A stretch of DNA of 60,539 bases. Origin: an uncultured Rhodospirillales bacterium (lineage in GTDB: Bacteria; Pseudomonadota; Alphaproteobacteria; Acetobacterales; Acetobacteraceae). The notes beneath the pieces were generated by a model. It had not been told where the DNA came from. It was given only the letters and a program-made list of their open reading frames with translations, and ran no database searches. The translations under genes and the position numbers were made by a program. The stretch lies in the NCBI GenBank assembly GCA_903843125.1, contig CAIMOR010000462.1, positions 1-60,539 of the forward strand, written 5' to 3'. Positions 48,901 to 55,764 of the stretch are shown one piece after another; the stretch's first letter is position 1; the number at the start of each line of letters is the position of its first letter.

Positions 48901-49583
48901 CGCATGCCCTGGCGCTGCGGATCAGCCAGGACGCCTACCAGGGCAATGCGCAGTACACGCTCAGCGTGGACGGCGTGCAGATGGGCGGGACGCAGACGGC
49001 AACGTCGCTGCATGGCTCCGGCAGCAGCGACGTGGTTACGCTGCGGGGTGATTGGGGCGCCGGACCACATGCGCTGACCGTGAACTTCCTGAACGACCTG
49101 TACGACGGCACGCCGAGCACCGACCGCAACCTGTACGTCGACGGCGCCAGCTACGACGGCGTGGCGCTGCCCGGCGCGGCGAAGCCACTGCTTTCGGCCG
49201 GGCCGCAGGCGGTGACGTTCAGCGGCGGCGGCACCAGCACCACGCTTGGCAGCGGGCCGCACAGCCTGGTGCTGCAGCTGAGCCAGGATGCCTGGCAGGG
49301 CAGCGCGCAGTACACGGTGAAGGTGGACAGCACGCAGCTGGGCGGCACGCTGACCGCGGCGGCGTTGCACGGCTTCGGCCAGGAGGACCAGTTGACCCTG
49401 CAGGGCAACTGGGCCACCGGGCCGCATACGGTCACCGTCTCCTTCCTGAACGACGCCTACAACAACAGCCCCGACACCGACCGCAACCTTTATGTCGACG
49501 GCCTCAGCTACGATGGCGTGGCGCAGGCCGGCGGCAGCGCCGCGCTGCTCAGCACCGGGGCGCACGACTTTGCCTTCGCCTGA
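45978..49583 (+). CDS. Calx-beta domain + PQQ-dependent sugar dehydrogenase-like domain + five CBM60-like xylan-binding repeats
   Basis: FVENTELSVDETAGQVVETVERTGSLSGDVSITYNV...DDTIPEPTETFAFSI (Calx-beta); VTIASGLDQPIRMVPSPIDANKMYVAEKSG...GDRGLLSIALHPDFANNPYIY (GSDH); five LGSGAHALVLxxSQDAYQGxAQYTVSVDG...FLNDAYGGTPxTDRNLYVDG repeats. Confidence 0.85.
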   Translation: MAVNSSIFVENTELSVDETAGQVVETVERTGSLSGDVSITYNVTGDTATAGLDFKGGFGTVVMPDGASEVSIPIQIYDDTIPEPTETFAFSIVDVSNGTLWAPRTSRISILDNETPAPPPAPEPPLTSNYVVNPVTIASGLDQPIRMVPSPIDANKMYVAEKSGVILLTDINTGQHSTVLDISSMVNDYGDRGLLSIALHPDFANNPYIYAYVVVDPPDGAGLTANAGPDGGGNRYAQLLRFTADAATNFTTIVPGSEKVLLGGAGQSLNDISGGGWLDFTEPGQSGQPASDHVINSAAATPPVVVNGIKQDYLKVDSSSHAGGALAFGPDGALYVSTGDGTSFDFADPRTVDVQSLDSLSGKILRIDPMTGQGLATNPFVTDGLSLDSDRAKVFQYGLRNPFSITFDQEGKLMITDTGWNSWEELNNGGPGANFGWPFYEGQDGGVSRPAPGYQDTPAAQAFYTAVANGTVKVMAPFRSFSHDSADPGFQVQAVTGSEVVYNGTVYPASFDNQWIFEDFAEGHIFAVNVDDRTQVQYLYSAPSGYAPVDFVQAANGYIYAADIALGQIERLDISAAPAGGSGGGFPPATVTLGSGAHALVLSISQDAYRGSAQYSIAVDGVAVGATQTASALHGSGQDDQVTVLGNWGAGSHTVTVTFLNDAYGGSAAADRNLYVDGITYDGAALANATAALMGPVSQGFGFTGSAPQVPAPANISLGSGAHALVLQLSQDAYQGAAQYTVSVDGVQQGGTQSAVALHGSGQEDTVTVHGDWGAGTHTVTVTFLNDAYGGTPDTDRNLYVDGVSYDGAALANGTAALLSAGAQGFGFSGGSAAPSASLTLGSGAHALVLSISQDAWQGSAQYTVSVDGVQVGGTQTAAALHGSGQDDSVTVKGDWAAGAHVVAISFLNDAYGGTPATDRNLYVDGITADGTAVAGGTAALLSAGTQPFGFSIAGGSGGGTGGGAGSGTVIGTGPHALALRISQDAYQGNAQYTLSVDGVQMGGTQTATSLHGSGSSDVVTLRGDWGAGPHALTVNFLNDLYDGTPSTDRNLYVDGASYDGVALPGAAKPLLSAGPQAVTFSGGGTSTTLGSGPHSLVLQLSQDAWQGSAQYTVKVDSTQLGGTLTAAALHGFGQEDQLTLQGNWATGPHTVTVSFLNDAYNNSPDTDRNLYVDGLSYDGVAQAGGSAALLSTGAHDFAFA
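47754..49580 (+). repeat. Five tandem in-frame CBM60-like domain repeats of about 356-390 bp
   Basis: Repeat starts (LGSGAHAL-type) at about 47754, 48129, 48498, 48888, 49244. Confidence 0.9.
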
Positions 49584-49717
49584 GCGACGGCCGGAGACGG
49601 GACGCCGCGGCGGCCGCTGCGGATTGCCGCGGTCCGGGCCTGCCACCAGCAACCCCTGATTGCGGCTGCGCGCCGCTGCCGTTACATGCTGGTGCGGCAG
49701 TGGCGAGGATCGGCGGC

Positions 49718-51811
49718 ATGGATGGCAGCGCGGGCCAGGTGGTGACGCCTGCCGGGGGCAGCAGGCAGCGGCGTGCCGGGCAGTGGCTGGCGGCCCTGCT
49801 GCGGCGGCGGCTGGTCAAGGCGCTGATGGTCGCCAACCTGGTGGCACTGGTGCTGTTGCCGGCGCGGGAGGCCGGCTGGCTGCAGGGGCTGGAGCTTTCG
49901 GCTTACGATACGCTGCTGACCGCCACCGCCGGCACCGAGCCGAGCGACCGCGTGGTGCTGGTGGTGACGACGGAAGCGGACATCAACCGCTTCGGCTACC
50001 CGATCCGGGATGCCGACCTGGCGGCGGTGCTGGCGCGGGTTTTTACCGGCGAGCCGAAGGCGGTGGGCGTTGACCTCTACCGCGACCTGCCGATGCCTCC
50101 CGGCAACGCGGCGCTGCAGGCGATCCAGCGGGAGCAGGACAACCTGTACTGGGTGTTCAAGCTGCCGGATGCCGGGAACATCGGCATTCCCGCGCCGCCG
50201 GTGCTGCGCGAGACCGGCCGCGAGGTGCTGGCCGACAACGTCACCGATGCCGGCGGCGTGGTGCGCCGCGCCCTGTTGCTGGCGGCCGACGAGCGCACCG
50301 GGCGCAACTGGCGCACCATGGGCGTGACGCTGGCGGAGCGCTACACCGGGCAGCGGCTGCGGCCGGACGAGGACGACCTGGCGATCGGGCGCGGACGCAT
50401 CCCGCTGATCGACCAGCCTTATGGCCCCTATGCGCGGGTGGACGCCGCCGGCTACCAGATGCTGTTCGATTTCCGCGGCGGCCACCGGCGGTTCCGCGAG
50501 ATCAGCTTCGCCGACATACTGGACAAGCCTGAACTGGCGGAGACGCTGCGCGGGCGTATCGTGCTGGTGGGCACCGCGGCGCTGTCGATCAAGGACAACT
50601 TCGCCACGCCGTTCAGCACCGGCTGGGGCGGTGAGGGACCGCTGATCGGGATTGCGCTGCACGCGCAGATCGCCGACCAGTTGATTCGCCTCGCCGAAGC
50701 CGAGACGCGCAACCCGGTGCCGCTGCCGCGCTGGGTGGACCATGCGGCGATCTGGGCCGCGGCCATGGCTGGGGCGGTGCTGGCCTTCCTGGCCAGCCGC
50801 GTGCTGCTGGTGCTGGCCGGTCTGCTGCTCGGGCTCGGCGTGGTGGGCGGCGCGACGGCGCTGGGGTTTTCCACCGCCGGGCTGCTGCTGCCGGGGGTGC
50901 CGGTGGCGCTGGCCTGGGTGGTCAGCGCCGCCGGCTGCAACTTCATGATGAACGCCGCGGGCGCCAAGGAACGGATGCAACTGCGCCGCAGCTTCGAGAG
51001 CTATCTGGACCCGCGCATCATCAGCCAGATGATGCAGGGCGACACACTGCCGAGCTTCGGCGGCGAACACCGCGAGATCACCGCGATCTTCACCGATATC
51101 GCCGGCTTCACCACCACGGCGGAAACGATGGACGCGGCGACCGTGGCCGGCCTGCTGGGCGAGTATTTCGGCGTGCTGACCGATGCGGTCGTTTCCCATG
51201 GCGGGCTGGTGAACGATTTCATCGGCGATGGGCTGCTGGTGCTGTTCGGCGCGCCGATGCACCAGCCGGACCATGCCGACCGCGCCGTGGCGGCGGCGCT
51301 GGCGATGGATGATGCGGCCCAGGCGTTCAACGCCGATCTCGCGCTGCGCGGGATCAAGTGGGGGCATACGCGGATTGGCGTGCATACCGGCATGGCGCTG
51401 GTGGGCAATATCGGCACCCGCGGCAAGCTGAAGTACGGCGCGCTGGGCGATACGCTGAACACCGCGTCCCGGGTCGAGGGGCTGAACAAATACCTGGGCA
51501 CCCGCGTCGCGGTAACCGGCGAAACCGCGGCGCAATGCCGGCGGCTGGCGTTCCGGCCGATTGGTGACGTGATCGTGAAGGGGCGCAAGAACGCCATGCC
51601 CATGCTGGCGCCGGTGGCCGCCAGCGACCCGCCGGCGCTGCTGGCGGGCTACGCCGCGGCCTATGCTGCGCTGGCCGAGGCGAAACCGGGGGTTGTCGAG
51701 ATGTTTGCCGCGCTGCAGCGGGAATTTCCCGCTGACGCGCTGGTGGCGTTCCATGTTGGGCGGTTGGCGGCGGGCGAAACTGGCGTGCTGGTGGTCATGC
51801 AGGAGAAATGA
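49718..51811 (+). CDS. CHASE2-domain adenylate/guanylate cyclase
   Basis: N-terminal TM + CHASE2 (VVLVVTTEADINRFGYPIRDADLAAVL), TM cluster, class III cyclase EITAIFTDIAGFTTTAETMD...NDFIGDGLLVLFGAPM...GVHTGMALVGNIGTRGKLKYGALGDTLNTASRVEGLNK. Confidence 0.93.
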   Translation: MDGSAGQVVTPAGGSRQRRAGQWLAALLRRRLVKALMVANLVALVLLPAREAGWLQGLELSAYDTLLTATAGTEPSDRVVLVVTTEADINRFGYPIRDADLAAVLARVFTGEPKAVGVDLYRDLPMPPGNAALQAIQREQDNLYWVFKLPDAGNIGIPAPPVLRETGREVLADNVTDAGGVVRRALLLAADERTGRNWRTMGVTLAERYTGQRLRPDEDDLAIGRGRIPLIDQPYGPYARVDAAGYQMLFDFRGGHRRFREISFADILDKPELAETLRGRIVLVGTAALSIKDNFATPFSTGWGGEGPLIGIALHAQIADQLIRLAEAETRNPVPLPRWVDHAAIWAAAMAGAVLAFLASRVLLVLAGLLLGLGVVGGATALGFSTAGLLLPGVPVALAWVVSAAGCNFMMNAAGAKERMQLRRSFESYLDPRIISQMMQGDTLPSFGGEHREITAIFTDIAGFTTTAETMDAATVAGLLGEYFGVLTDAVVSHGGLVNDFIGDGLLVLFGAPMHQPDHADRAVAAALAMDDAAQAFNADLALRGIKWGHTRIGVHTGMALVGNIGTRGKLKYGALGDTLNTASRVEGLNKYLGTRVAVTGETAAQCRRLAFRPIGDVIVKGRKNAMPMLAPVAASDPPALLAGYAAAYAALAEAKPGVVEMFAALQREFPADALVAFHVGRLAAGETGVLVVMQEK

Positions 51812-51853
51812 TACGGTGCCTTCTTCTCAACCCTGACGCAGGGAGTTCGCGCC

Positions 51854-52114
51854 ATGCTGTCCACCCGTCGATTCCTGGCCACCGCCCTGTTCGGCGCTGC
51901 TGGCTTGGTTCCCGCGGTTGCCCGCGCCCAGTCCGATGCCGGCGCTGACGACCTGATGAAGCGCCTGCGCGGCGCGCCCGGCAGCCGGGTGGGCGGGGCG
52001 ACCCGTGGCATCAGGCGTGACCGTCCGGCCGCCGCGGCCATCCCGGCGGCACCGACCGCGAGCCAGCCGGCGGCCGTTGCGCCGACCGGCGTGGCCGGCG
52101 TCTCCGGCGGCTGA
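51854..52114 (+). CDS. small secreted Ala/Pro-rich hypothetical protein (86 aa)
   Basis: MLSTRRFLATALFGAAGLVPAVARAQ signal peptide; stop overlaps next ATG by 1 nt. Confidence 0.65.
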   Translation: MLSTRRFLATALFGAAGLVPAVARAQSDAGADDLMKRLRGAPGSRVGGATRGIRRDRPAAAAIPAAPTASQPAAVAPTGVAGVSGG

Positions 52115-52953
52115 TGCAGGACGGCACCGCGGGGGCGATGCGCCTGCGTTTCTGGGGTGTCCGCGGCAGCTTGCCGTCACCCGGTGCCGGAACCCAGATC
52201 TTCGGAGGCAATACCTGTTGCGTTGAACTCTGCTGCGGCCCGCATCTGCTGATGCTGGACGCCGGCACCGGCGCGCGCGGCCTGGGCGACGCGCTGGTGG
52301 CTGGCGGCGGCCCCGTGAGCGTCGACCTGCTGCTCAGCCACTCCCACCTGGACCACATCGCCGGCCTGCCGTTCTTCGCGCCGATCTACCAGAACGGCAC
52401 CAGGCTGCGGATCTGGGGGGGCCATCTCGGTCGCGGCGGGCTGGAGGCGGCGCTGGACCGCAGCTGGAGCGCGCCGCTGATGCCGGACCTGCGGCGGATG
52501 TTCCGTGCCGAGCTGCGCTTCGAGGAGTTCCGCCAGGGCAGCGTGCTGCAGGTGCAGCCTGGGTTGAGGGTGACCACGGCGGCGTTGCGCCACCCTGGCG
52601 GCTGCACCGGCTACCGGGTGGAGTGGCAGGACAAGGTGGTGGCCTATGCCACCGATACCGAGCACAAGCCGGGCGACCTGGACCCGAACGTGCTGCACCT
52701 GGCGCGGGACGCCGACGTGCTGGTGTATGACGCCAGCTACGAGGAAGCGGAGTTCGCCTCGCACCTCGGCTGGGGCCATTCGACCTGGCAGCACGCCGTG
52801 CGGCTGGCCGAGGTGGCCGGCGTGCGGCGCCTGGTGCTGTTCCACCACGAGCCGGGCCGGGACGACATGGCCCTGGCGAAGATCGAGCAACAGGCAGCGG
52901 CGCGCCGGCCCGGGACGCTGGCGGCGCGCGAAGGGATGATGATCGAGCTGTAG
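52114..52953 (+). CDS. MBL-fold metallo-hydrolase (PhnP/class II cyclic-nucleotide PDE-like)
   Basis: RFWGVRGSLPSPGAGTQIFGGNTCCVEL; LLLSHSHLDHIAGLPFF (HxHxDH-type); YATDTEHKPGD; start could be 52138. Confidence 0.88.
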   Translation: MQDGTAGAMRLRFWGVRGSLPSPGAGTQIFGGNTCCVELCCGPHLLMLDAGTGARGLGDALVAGGGPVSVDLLLSHSHLDHIAGLPFFAPIYQNGTRLRIWGGHLGRGGLEAALDRSWSAPLMPDLRRMFRAELRFEEFRQGSVLQVQPGLRVTTAALRHPGGCTGYRVEWQDKVVAYATDTEHKPGDLDPNVLHLARDADVLVYDASYEEAEFASHLGWGHSTWQHAVRLAEVAGVRRLVLFHHEPGRDDMALAKIEQQAAARRPGTLAAREGMMIEL

Positions 52954-53021
52954 CGTGGCCGTCGCGGCGCCGCCGCGCGTTTGGTGCCGGTGGCGCTGCC
53001 GCGCGTTGCGTTACCTGCGGT

Positions 53022-53567
53022 TCAGCCGCGCGCCTCAGCCAGCGTGCGCAGCAGGCGGTCGAAGCGGTCTCCGGCCAGGGAGACGGTGTCGAGCAGCATG
53101 TCGTCCAACTCGTCGGCCTGGGCCTTGTCACCGGCCTGCAGCGTGACCTTGCCGCCACTGGCCTTGCGCTGCTGCGCGGTGCGCAGGCGGTCCGCCAGGA
53201 ACAGCGCGATGGCGCGGTAGAAGCGCATGCCGAAGCCGGCATCCTCGGCGATCTTCTCGTTCAGCGCGTCCTTCGGCACCTCCAGCACCAGGGCCGGACC
53301 TTCGGCCAGCACGGTGGCGGAGGGCGGCGCGCTGTCGACGAAGCTCATCTCGCCCAGCATTTCCCCCTGCTGCAGCAAGGCGACGCGGCCGATGCCGGCG
53401 ACCTCCACGGCCAGGTTGCCCTCGATCAGGATGAACAGGTAGGGGCTGCGCTCGTCCTGGCGGATGATCGCCTCGCCGGGGGCGACGCGGCGCTTGCTGC
53501 CGACGCGGGACAGCCACTGCACGTCCAGGTCGTCCAACTGGGCGAGCATGTAGAGTACCTTGCGCAT
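53022..53567 (-). CDS. cyclic nucleotide-binding (cNMP) domain protein
   Basis: VAPGEAIIRQDERSPYLFILIEGNLAVEVAGIGRVALLQQGEMLGEMSFVDSAPPSATVLAEGPALVLEVPKDAL; gagggg SD upstream of ATG at 53567. Confidence 0.88.
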   Translation of the reverse strand: MRKVLYMLAQLDDLDVQWLSRVGSKRRVAPGEAIIRQDERSPYLFILIEGNLAVEVAGIGRVALLQQGEMLGEMSFVDSAPPSATVLAEGPALVLEVPKDALNEKIAEDAGFGMRFYRAIALFLADRLRTAQQRKASGGKVTLQAGDKAQADELDDMLLDTVSLAGDRFDRLLRTLAEARG

Positions 53568-53577
53568 GGATGTCCCC

Positions 53578-54125
53578 TCAGGCCATTCGGCGGCGGGCCA
53601 GGTTCTGGAACAGGCCCGGCCTTTTGGATAATTCGCTGACGCTGCCTTCCTGCACGAGGCGGCCTCGGTCAAGCACCAGCACGCGGTCGACGCGTTTGAT
53701 GGTGGAGAGCCGATGGGCGATGATGACCGCAACCCCTCACGGCCGCGCAACTGCACCATCAGGCGGGCCAGGCGCTCTCGGGTCAGCGTGATGACCTTGC
53801 CATGGGCGCGGCGGCGCCCCTCGGTATTGGTGGCCATCGCGCTGTCCTGCTCGGCGATGTCGGCCATGCGGCGCGCGAGCTCGGCGCGCCGTTCCTCGGC
53901 CGCGGCCTCGGCGTTCTTCAGCTTCAGCTCGGCCTCGTCCTGGGTCAGGATGGATCCGAAGAAGCCCCCGGCCAGGAAGGCGGCCAGCACGATGCCGAGG
54001 CCGAGGGCGACCAGCCAGCCCTGCACGTTGGCGACGGTGACGAACTCGTCGAGTTGCTCCGGTGAAGCCAGCTTGTCGAGCGCGGTCGGGCGGTAGAGGC
54101 CGGGGGCCTCGGCGGGGGCGCTCAT
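53578..54125 (-). pseudogene. collapsed NHLM-type HlyD secretion protein / ABC exporter remnant
   Basis: In-frame N-terminus MSAPAEAPGLYRPTALDKLASPEQLDEFVTVANVQGWLVALGLGIVLAAFLAGGFFGSI (NHLM HlyD-like) joined to coiled-coil fragment, then after a reading-frame change the minus strand encodes VAVIIAHRLSTIKRVDRVLVLDRGRLVQEGSVSELSKRPGLFQNLARRRMA*, an ABC ATPase H-loop/C-terminus. Confidence 0.75.
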
Positions 54126-54199
54126 GCAGGGGCGCCCGGCATGCTGGAGCACCGCGCACCCTGTCGGGCGCATTTCGTGCCCTATAACTGATTGAAATC

Positions 54200-54245
54200 A
54201 GAGCAATATCCGTTCTGATAATTCCACCGGAACGGGTATTGCTCT
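54200..54245. repeat. 16-bp near-perfect palindrome abutting the ATP-grasp stop codon
   Basis: agagcaatatccgttc-N14-gaacgggtattgctct, one mismatch. Confidence 0.7.
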
Positions 54246-55356
54246 AGCGGCCGGCGGTGCGGGCCAGGGCATCCCGCACGTACATCGCCTTCATGCGGTG
54301 ATAGAACTCCTGCGGGTCCATCGCGCCGCTGTCTATCACGACATTGGCGAAGAACTGATACTCGAAGAACACGAGTTGCCGCCGCAGCGCCTGGTAGTCG
54401 TACGGCCGCGCCAGCAGGTCCATCTCCGTGGCGCCCAGGTCGACGCAGAAGAAACTGAACTCGCGCCCGCATTGCGCGGCCATCTCGGCCCGCACCCGCG
54501 TCATGAAGCGATCCAGGTTGGTGGTCTCGGTCGGGGTCAACTCGACGTATTCGGCGCCCTGGGCCATGTTGCCGCTGAGCGCCACGAACAGCTTGTCGCC
54601 GGCGGGCACCGCCTCGAAGCTGCGGTGGCGGTAGCGGTCACGCAGCGCGGCCAGGCCGCTTGGCCCGAGCTCCGCCTTGCGGTCCATGACCTGCAGGTAC
54701 AACGGCCGGCCATCCGAGACGAAGAACGGGCAGCGCTTGTCGTAGACGCTGCGCCACTGCCGCCCGGCCAGGTCGGTGTAGACCATGTAGCGGAAGTCCC
54801 GCACGATCGGCAGGCTGCGCTGCACCAGGTAGTCCTGCGGCGTGAACAGCAGGTGCTCCAGCACCTCCTCCACCTTGGTGGTGCGCAGCAGCCCCTTGCC
54901 CTTGGAGCCGTCCTTCGGCTTCAGCAGCCAGGCGCCGGTACCCAGCTTCAGCAGCTTCTCGCGCAGCGCCAGCGGGTCGAACGGCGCCGCCGGGACATGG
55001 ATGGTCTCCGGCGCGTTGTAGCCAAGGCCGCGCATGACGCCGACGAAGGCCACCTTGTCGTTCAGGTGGGCCACCCGCGGGTCCGACCACAGGTCCAGCA
55101 CGCGGGCGAAGCGCAGCATCAGCCGCAGGGTCAGCGGGTGCCAGTCGCGCCAGTTGGTGGAACCGGTGCCGGCCTCGGCCCGGGCAACCTGGCGGCTGCC
55201 GAGCCGGCGCATGGCGGCGACCAGGGCATCGACCTCGGCTTCGTTCACCGGTGCCCGCGGCAGCAGATGGGCGTGCTGATGCGGGGTCAGCAGCGGGCCG
55301 GCCGCGGTCATGGCCGGCAGCCGGTGCGGGGCGTGGCTATCCGCGGCATCGGGCAC
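54244..55356 (-). CDS. ATP-grasp enzyme, putative RiPP-modifying ligase
   Basis: GTGAWLLKPKDGSKGKGLLRTTKVEEVLEHLLFTPQDYLVQRSLPIVRDFRYMVYTDLAGRQWRSVYDKR ATP-grasp signature; GTG start at 55356 or ATG at 55311; directly downstream of the precursor-like peptide. Confidence 0.72.
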   Translation of the reverse strand: MPDAADSHAPHRLPAMTAAGPLLTPHQHAHLLPRAPVNEAEVDALVAAMRRLGSRQVARAEAGTGSTNWRDWHPLTLRLMLRFARVLDLWSDPRVAHLNDKVAFVGVMRGLGYNAPETIHVPAAPFDPLALREKLLKLGTGAWLLKPKDGSKGKGLLRTTKVEEVLEHLLFTPQDYLVQRSLPIVRDFRYMVYTDLAGRQWRSVYDKRCPFFVSDGRPLYLQVMDRKAELGPSGLAALRDRYRHRSFEAVPAGDKLFVALSGNMAQGAEYVELTPTETTNLDRFMTRVRAEMAAQCGREFSFFCVDLGATEMDLLARPYDYQALRRQLVFFEYQFFANVVIDSGAMDPQEFYHRMKAMYVRDALARTAGR

Positions 55357-55434: not shown

Positions 55435-55626
55435 CTATTCGAAGATGCTGGTGGGGTCGAAAGCCGGCACGATGGGCTGGTACTCGACCTGCTCGGCTTT
55501 GTCGTTGGTGGTCTTCCTGCCGCCGGAAACCTGATCCAGGATGCTGTCGTCGATCTGGTCGAGTTCATTCTCGGACTTGATCTTGCGGATCTGGGTGTTG
55601 TCTTCGGTGGTGCTGGCGTCGGACAT
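55435..55626 (-). CDS. 63-aa putative RiPP/bacteriocin precursor with double-glycine leader
   Basis: MSDASTTEDNTQIRKIKSENELDQIDDSILDQVSGG|RKTTNDKAEQVEYQPIVPAFDPTSIFE; good SD gaggag 6 nt upstream; same strand, upstream of ATP-grasp. Confidence 0.75.
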   Translation of the reverse strand: MSDASTTEDNTQIRKIKSENELDQIDDSILDQVSGGRKTTNDKAEQVEYQPIVPAFDPTSIFE

Positions 55627-55730
55627 GCTGCTCTCCTCAAGCCGGGCGGCTGGCATTCGCTGGGGCTGCAGGGCGGTCATGATGGCACGTTCCGGGACGG
55701 CAGATGCGGGTGATGCGGCGCACCCGGCCC

Positions 55731-55764
55731 ATTACTATTACGTAGGCCAGGGCGCGCCAGTCAA
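55731..55764 (-). promoter_or_regulatory. putative promoter for precursor peptide gene
   Basis: Minus strand TTGACT followed by AT-rich gtaatagtaat in otherwise GC-rich intergenic DNA. Confidence 0.3.

Follow-up and report, generated by a model that had tools for sequence, protein, structure and literature searches.

The window, by which we mean the whole stretch of 60,539 nt analysed here, carries on its minus strand a gene for a RiPP-type precursor of 63 aa (55435..55626). The coordinates, strand, and sequence given for this double-glycine-leader peptide in the original prediction were rechecked on the window and proved exact. The ORF starts with an ATG behind a strong ribosome-binding site (TTGAGGAGAGCAGC), and four relatives have orthologues with 64–75% identity in the corresponding position. 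The complete peptide consists of the leader MSDASTTEDNTQIRKIKSENELDQIDDSILDQVSGG (residues 1–36, with the terminal GG) and the core RKTTNDKAEQVEYQPIVPAFDPTSIFE of 27 aa. The end of the leader, ELDQIDDSILDQVSGG, shows hydrophobic residues at positions −4, −7, −8, −12, and −15, a spacing before GG that is typical of double-glycine leaders. Searches of Pfam and NCBIfam with the precursor returned no match at E ≤ 0.1. Thus, it does not possess a recognised leader of the nitrile-hydratase or Nif11 type.

The reading frame may extend further upstream. An in-frame ATG at 55680, 18 codons before the peptide start, is present in all five copies, and the 54 nt between the two ATGs are free of indels in each of them (pN/pS 0.76). 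Thus, the precursor might comprise 81 aa. Translation of the possible N-terminal extension, MTALQPQRMPAARLEESS (55627..55680, minus strand), is uncertain, and no clear ribosome-binding site was found ahead of the upstream ATG. Further upstream, a sigma-70-like promoter on the same strand (TTGACT, 18-nt spacer, TAATAG; 55735..55764) is kept in all five copies with the consensus TTGAC[GT]-N18-[TA]A[AT][AT]A[GC] and identical spacing, while the surrounding upstream DNA otherwise aligns poorly. The element scores below the threshold of a general promoter scan. A hairpin 3′ of the peptide gene, GCCCCATGCCCTGGGGC, was considered as a conserved attenuator and rejected, as the intergenic sequences of the other four copies showed no sign of it.

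The next gene on the minus strand (54244..55311) encodes a protein of 355 aa, a putative peptide-modifying ligase with 80–84% identity to the copies of the four relatives. Its start codon is the ATG at 55311 or possibly, in a longer version, the GTG at 55356. Six genomes of the genus, which belongs to the Acetobacteraceae, were examined. Five of them carry the peptide gene or the enzyme gene, and each of these five has both, side by side and in an unchanged order; the peptide profile had matches in the same five at E 1e-36 or better. In the relatives, the peptide gene lies 115–220 nt upstream of the enzyme gene. No full-length enzyme match outside the genus was obtained among 300 genomes of the family, 397 of the order, and 399 of the phylum, three samples that may overlap. 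A further scan, in which each GTDB species was represented by a single genome and which detects close relatives only, yielded four enzyme loci, all of them in metagenome assemblies titled Acetobacteraceae or Rhodospirillales. Searches of viral contigs with the enzyme gave no relatives, and a tblastn search of plasmids with the peptide gave two matches at chance level. Weak peptide matches outside the genus (E 0.0085–0.097) covered short stretches, mostly the leader end, and were not counted. None of the sampled genomes had the precursor without the enzyme or the enzyme without the precursor. An ATP-grasp gene without precursor had been named beforehand as counter-evidence and was looked for; neither this nor any other result listed there against the proposal turned up.

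Genome G238 is the only one of the six genus members without peptide and enzyme. It could not be used as a clean empty site, as its GST copy is located at a contig end and its cNMP gene has no ABC2 beside it; the absence at this locus is suggestive only. The cNMP-binding gene of this genome (contig C214, 6113–6646) is more diverged and adjoins a partial MBL gene. The gene on its other side was read by eye as TupA-like and not as ABC2.

The five copies revealed strong purifying selection on the leader, as expected from the original prediction, with a pN/pS of 0.076 for codons 9–36 (all pairs). The middle of the core is nearly unconstrained (0.88, summed over all pairs), and the core end shows an intermediate value (0.56); the enzyme gene gave 0.32 for comparison. 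Residues K38, E48, P54, F56, D57, P58, and T59 of the core are invariant in the five sequences, position 60 is S or T, and the last residue is D or E in every copy. The core closes with a conserved FDPT[ST] motif. Thus, of the nucleophiles and acids proposed earlier for cross-linking, K38, E48, D57, T59, and S/T60 are conserved, whereas T39 and T40, the first threonines of the core, are not. Five sequences are too small a set for covariation, and the nucleophilic and acidic residues kept in them follow no known spacing motif. A conserved leader combined with a variable core that has a conserved end is the mode of evolution of RiPP precursors. A chance ORF is ruled out by this selection pattern and the co-conservation with the enzyme gene.

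Operon structure and the fate of the linked exporter

The four relatives share the gene order peptide, ATP-grasp enzyme, HlyD, C39-peptidase ABC transporter (ABC1), second ABC transporter (ABC2), and cNMP-binding protein. The genes for the ATP-grasp enzyme and HlyD, as well as those for ABC1 and ABC2, overlap or lie within a few bases of each other, which is the packing of an operon. Judged by profile scores, this operon includes a complete NHLM exporter: the L018 proteins reached 260, 931, and 791 bits against TIGR03794, TIGR03796, and TIGR03797, whose curated cut-offs are 156, 853, and 709 bits. The C39 peptidase of the exporter is predicted to supply the protease for the GG site. For the cNMP-binding protein of the relatives, the match to TIGR03896 covers the C-terminal part of the model and stays below the cut-off. 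An exporter with a double-glycine peptidase lay beyond the single sequence on which the original prediction was based.

In the window, the exporter is damaged. Only the N-terminal part of the NHLM HlyD is left (53727..54127, minus strand; TIGR03794 profile positions 1–44 and DNA alignment), followed by the 3′ end of ABC2 (53581..53727, minus strand; protein match and a DNA junction at 53727). The segment 53581–53754 is 72% identical to residues 904–961 of a relative's ABC2. The cNMP-binding bacteriocin-transport-associated protein is intact (53022..53567, minus strand), with matches to PF00027 and, at E 2.6e-35 and under the curated cut-off, to the C-terminal part of TIGR03896; its gene shows a dN/dS of 0.06–0.18 across the copies. 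All three pieces lie in one fused ORF (53022–54173), which joins the HlyD N-terminus, the out-of-frame ABC2 end, and the cNMP-binding protein with its own ATG. According to DNA alignments with the relatives, this ORF arose by two deletions, one of 141 bp and in frame within HlyD, the other of ~5.7 kb, which fuses HlyD to the ABC2 end at 53727. ABC1 is absent, and the window contains no intact HlyD, ABC1, or ABC2 in cis. The genome is a draft of 572 contigs, and an assembly error may be behind the two deletions. Where the ATP-grasp gene ends, we observed a near-perfect palindrome of 44 bp (54201..54244, minus strand), possibly a mobile repeat element, which occurs once in the window and is absent from the other loci retrieved.

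We consider it possible, at somewhat less than even odds, that the window cluster is a decaying remnant without a product, a reading compatible with either of the chemistries discussed below for the relatives. The two deletions, which left little of HlyD and of the two ABC transporters, and the palindrome at the ATP-grasp/HlyD junction of this copy alone are in line with decay. The peptide and enzyme genes, however, are intact and show no sign of relaxed selection, with dN/dS values of 0.21–0.31 for pairs that include the window and 0.19–0.33 for the others. Furthermore, the same genome harbors two complete NHLM exporters elsewhere, on contigs C563 (L028, 406–7329) and C10 (L029, 2620–9536), and the possible assembly error likewise speaks against decay. 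The C563 exporter has an ABC2 with 69% identity, and neither a GG-leader peptide nor an ATP-grasp gene was seen beside it; the C10 exporter adjoins a gene for an outer-membrane efflux protein. Since the linked exporter is broken, export in the window genome would need one of these two systems, or it is lost.

Two further observations concern the surroundings of such exporters. In the window (49052–53567), the cNMP-binding gene lies together with genes for a metallo-beta-lactamase (MBL)-fold protein, weakly similar to a cyclic-nucleotide phosphodiesterase model, and a CHASE2-cyclase, all adjoining the peptide operon. The MBL-fold and CHASE2-cyclase genes also occur in L017 (17490–21054) and L018, and cyclic nucleotides might conceivably control export. 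Other NHLM loci of the Acetobacteraceae have large GG-leader proteins as neighbors, namely an RTX-like one of 222 aa (L068, 7733–8401) and two of 427 and 449 aa (L069, 4211–7054).

The ATP-grasp enzyme and its possible chemistry

The window enzyme had no match at E ≤ 0.1 in Pfam or NCBIfam and reached no family cut-off; graspetide-synthetase and RimK models of these databases did not match it. With all five members, NCBIfam gave only PRK12767 and PRK06849 (E 0.12–0.14), and one member matched Pfam TTL (PF03133) at E 0.17, which is below significance. The sole PDB sequence match of the enzyme profile was 5vlq (E 0.22), presumably a tubulin-tyrosine-ligase-like protein, at the motif KPxxGSKGKG.

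The structural model was not taken from a single sequence, as that version was discarded at pLDDT 40, but from AlphaFold2 on the five-sequence alignment, which gave moderate quality (pLDDT 59, pTM 0.57). Foldseek returned 44 PDB matches at E ≤ 0.001 (7e-5 to 1e-3), all of them ATP-grasp entries or tubulin complexes. The ATP-grasp entries comprised D-Ala ligases, PsnB, MdnB, MdnC, RimK, PurK-type and biotin-carboxylase entries, and others; in the tubulin complexes, titles such as 'tubulin-RB3-TTL' and 'T2R-TTL' indicate that the matched chain F is the tubulin tyrosine ligase (TTL). Furthermore, hhalign aligned the enzyme with A3, another ATP-grasp-like family of the Acetobacteraceae, at 93.9% probability over 176 columns. 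The model-based matches and the A3 profile match together support an ATP-grasp fold for the gene that follows the peptide, in agreement with the original prediction. Weak ATP-grasp matches elsewhere in the bacterial family (E 1e-3 to 1e-7) belong to A3, which is separate from the enzyme and serves as fold support only. The A3 proteins (e.g., L009, 1195–2259) share a conserved KPDIGCNGTG and have weak ATP-grasp matches themselves.

The TM-scores are low, about 0.2–0.4 from a moderate model, with no subfamily ahead. D-Ala ligases, the graspetide enzymes PsnB, MdnB, and MdnC, TTL, and RimK all score similarly, and thus the fold search does not decide the chemistry. We regard it as unlikely, though worth weighing, that the enzyme represents a separate lineage of peptide-modifying ATP-grasp proteins, unrelated to graspetide synthetases and with another reaction such as C-terminal amino-acid addition. 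Similarly unlikely, though the main rival to cross-linking, is an intermolecular TTL/RimK-type ligase that, rather than closing rings, extends the acidic C-terminus or a Glu/Asp side chain of the peptide by one or more amino acids. The match to 5vlq, the weak Pfam TTL match, and the TTL-containing complexes in the fold search point this way, as does the E or D at the end of every peptide copy. These sequence matches are below significance, however, graspetide synthetases did equally well in the fold search, and the conserved K38, T59, and S/T60 would be superfluous for chain extension. A literature search found no paper that links tubulin-tyrosine-ligase, RiPP, and ATP-grasp together.

Proposed pathway and relation to known systems

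The conserved leader, the variable core with its conserved end, the adjacent ATP-grasp gene, and the C39 exporter of the relatives are best read together as a RiPP system, in which the peptide is probably modified by the ATP-grasp enzyme and exported. That it is instead an unmodified double-glycine bacteriocin or signal, with the enzyme acting elsewhere (e.g., in immunity or on the cell envelope), is improbable: L068 and L069 do combine NHLM exporters with GG-leader proteins and no ATP-grasp gene was seen there, but here precursor and enzyme always occur together in the sampled genomes, and the packed operon has the ATP-grasp gene flanked by the genes for precursor and exporter. Given a RiPP system of this kind, intramolecular cross-linking is the likely reaction. 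C39 ABC transporters and HlyD are among the families most often tied to graspetide ATP-grasp genes (PMC8939145), and graspetide groups 2, 8, 14, 16, 18, 20, 21, and 23 co-occur with NHLM-type transporters (PMC13097080). Because of these links, graspetide-like cross-linking is the likeliest chemistry, and a RiPP operon with this chemistry is the best overall explanation, with a probability of roughly 0.55.

In the pathway and biological role that we infer for such an operon, the helical leader (residues 9–36, ending in GG) would serve as the handle for both the modifying enzyme and the exporter. The enzyme would use ATP to activate a core carboxylate and join this to a nucleophile, most likely as an intramolecular side-chain ester or amide. 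Candidate nucleophiles are K38, T59, and S/T60; candidate acids are E48, D57, and the C-terminal D/E. The C39 peptidase of the NHLM exporter would then cut after GG, and a product of 27–28 aa would be secreted.

The conserved small operon, carried by a group of Acetobacteraceae genomes of which at least four were assembled from metagenomes, would encode a secreted and probably enzyme-modified peptide. The system pairs an orphan ATP-grasp enzyme with a single conserved peptide as candidate substrate and, in the relatives, with a complete exporter, and it provides a small, clean test case for RiPP enzymes that current models miss. If cross-linking is true, the enzyme would define a graspetide-like group that the catalogued synthetase families do not include; if amino-acid ligation is true, it would stand for a different type of ATP-grasp RiPP reaction. 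The genus further illustrates how the exporter of such a cluster can be lost with precursor and enzyme left intact.

With TTL/RimK ligases, the enzyme shares the ATP-grasp fold and a weak similarity in motif and fold; unlike them, it has no significant sequence match and sits in a peptide-export operon. Compared to NHLM (NHLP) export systems, the window exporter is truncated and the precursor matches no NCBIfam or Pfam model, whereas HlyD, ABC1, and ABC2 of the relatives exceed the curated cut-offs and come with the cNMP-binding partner (TIGR03896). We know of no recognised graspetide core motif in the peptide. Its FDPT[ST] is not among the core motifs met in PMC8939145 and PMC13097080, and the enzyme differs from graspetide synthetases in matching none of their models. 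The leader signatures PFFARFL and Phhx(1,2)h, which bind the graspetide enzyme, occur in about half of the precursors (PMC8939145); by inspection, they are absent from all five leaders here, as can be the case in graspetides, where they are not universal. We therefore speak of graspetide-like chemistry and do not claim membership. The original prediction is supported in part, namely for the RiPP-type precursor beside a co-conserved ATP-grasp gene; the comparison with synthetase models and leader motifs gave no support for a graspetide. As in graspetides, a leader–GG–core precursor lies next to an ATP-grasp enzyme and, in the relatives, is joined by HlyD and a C39 ABC exporter.
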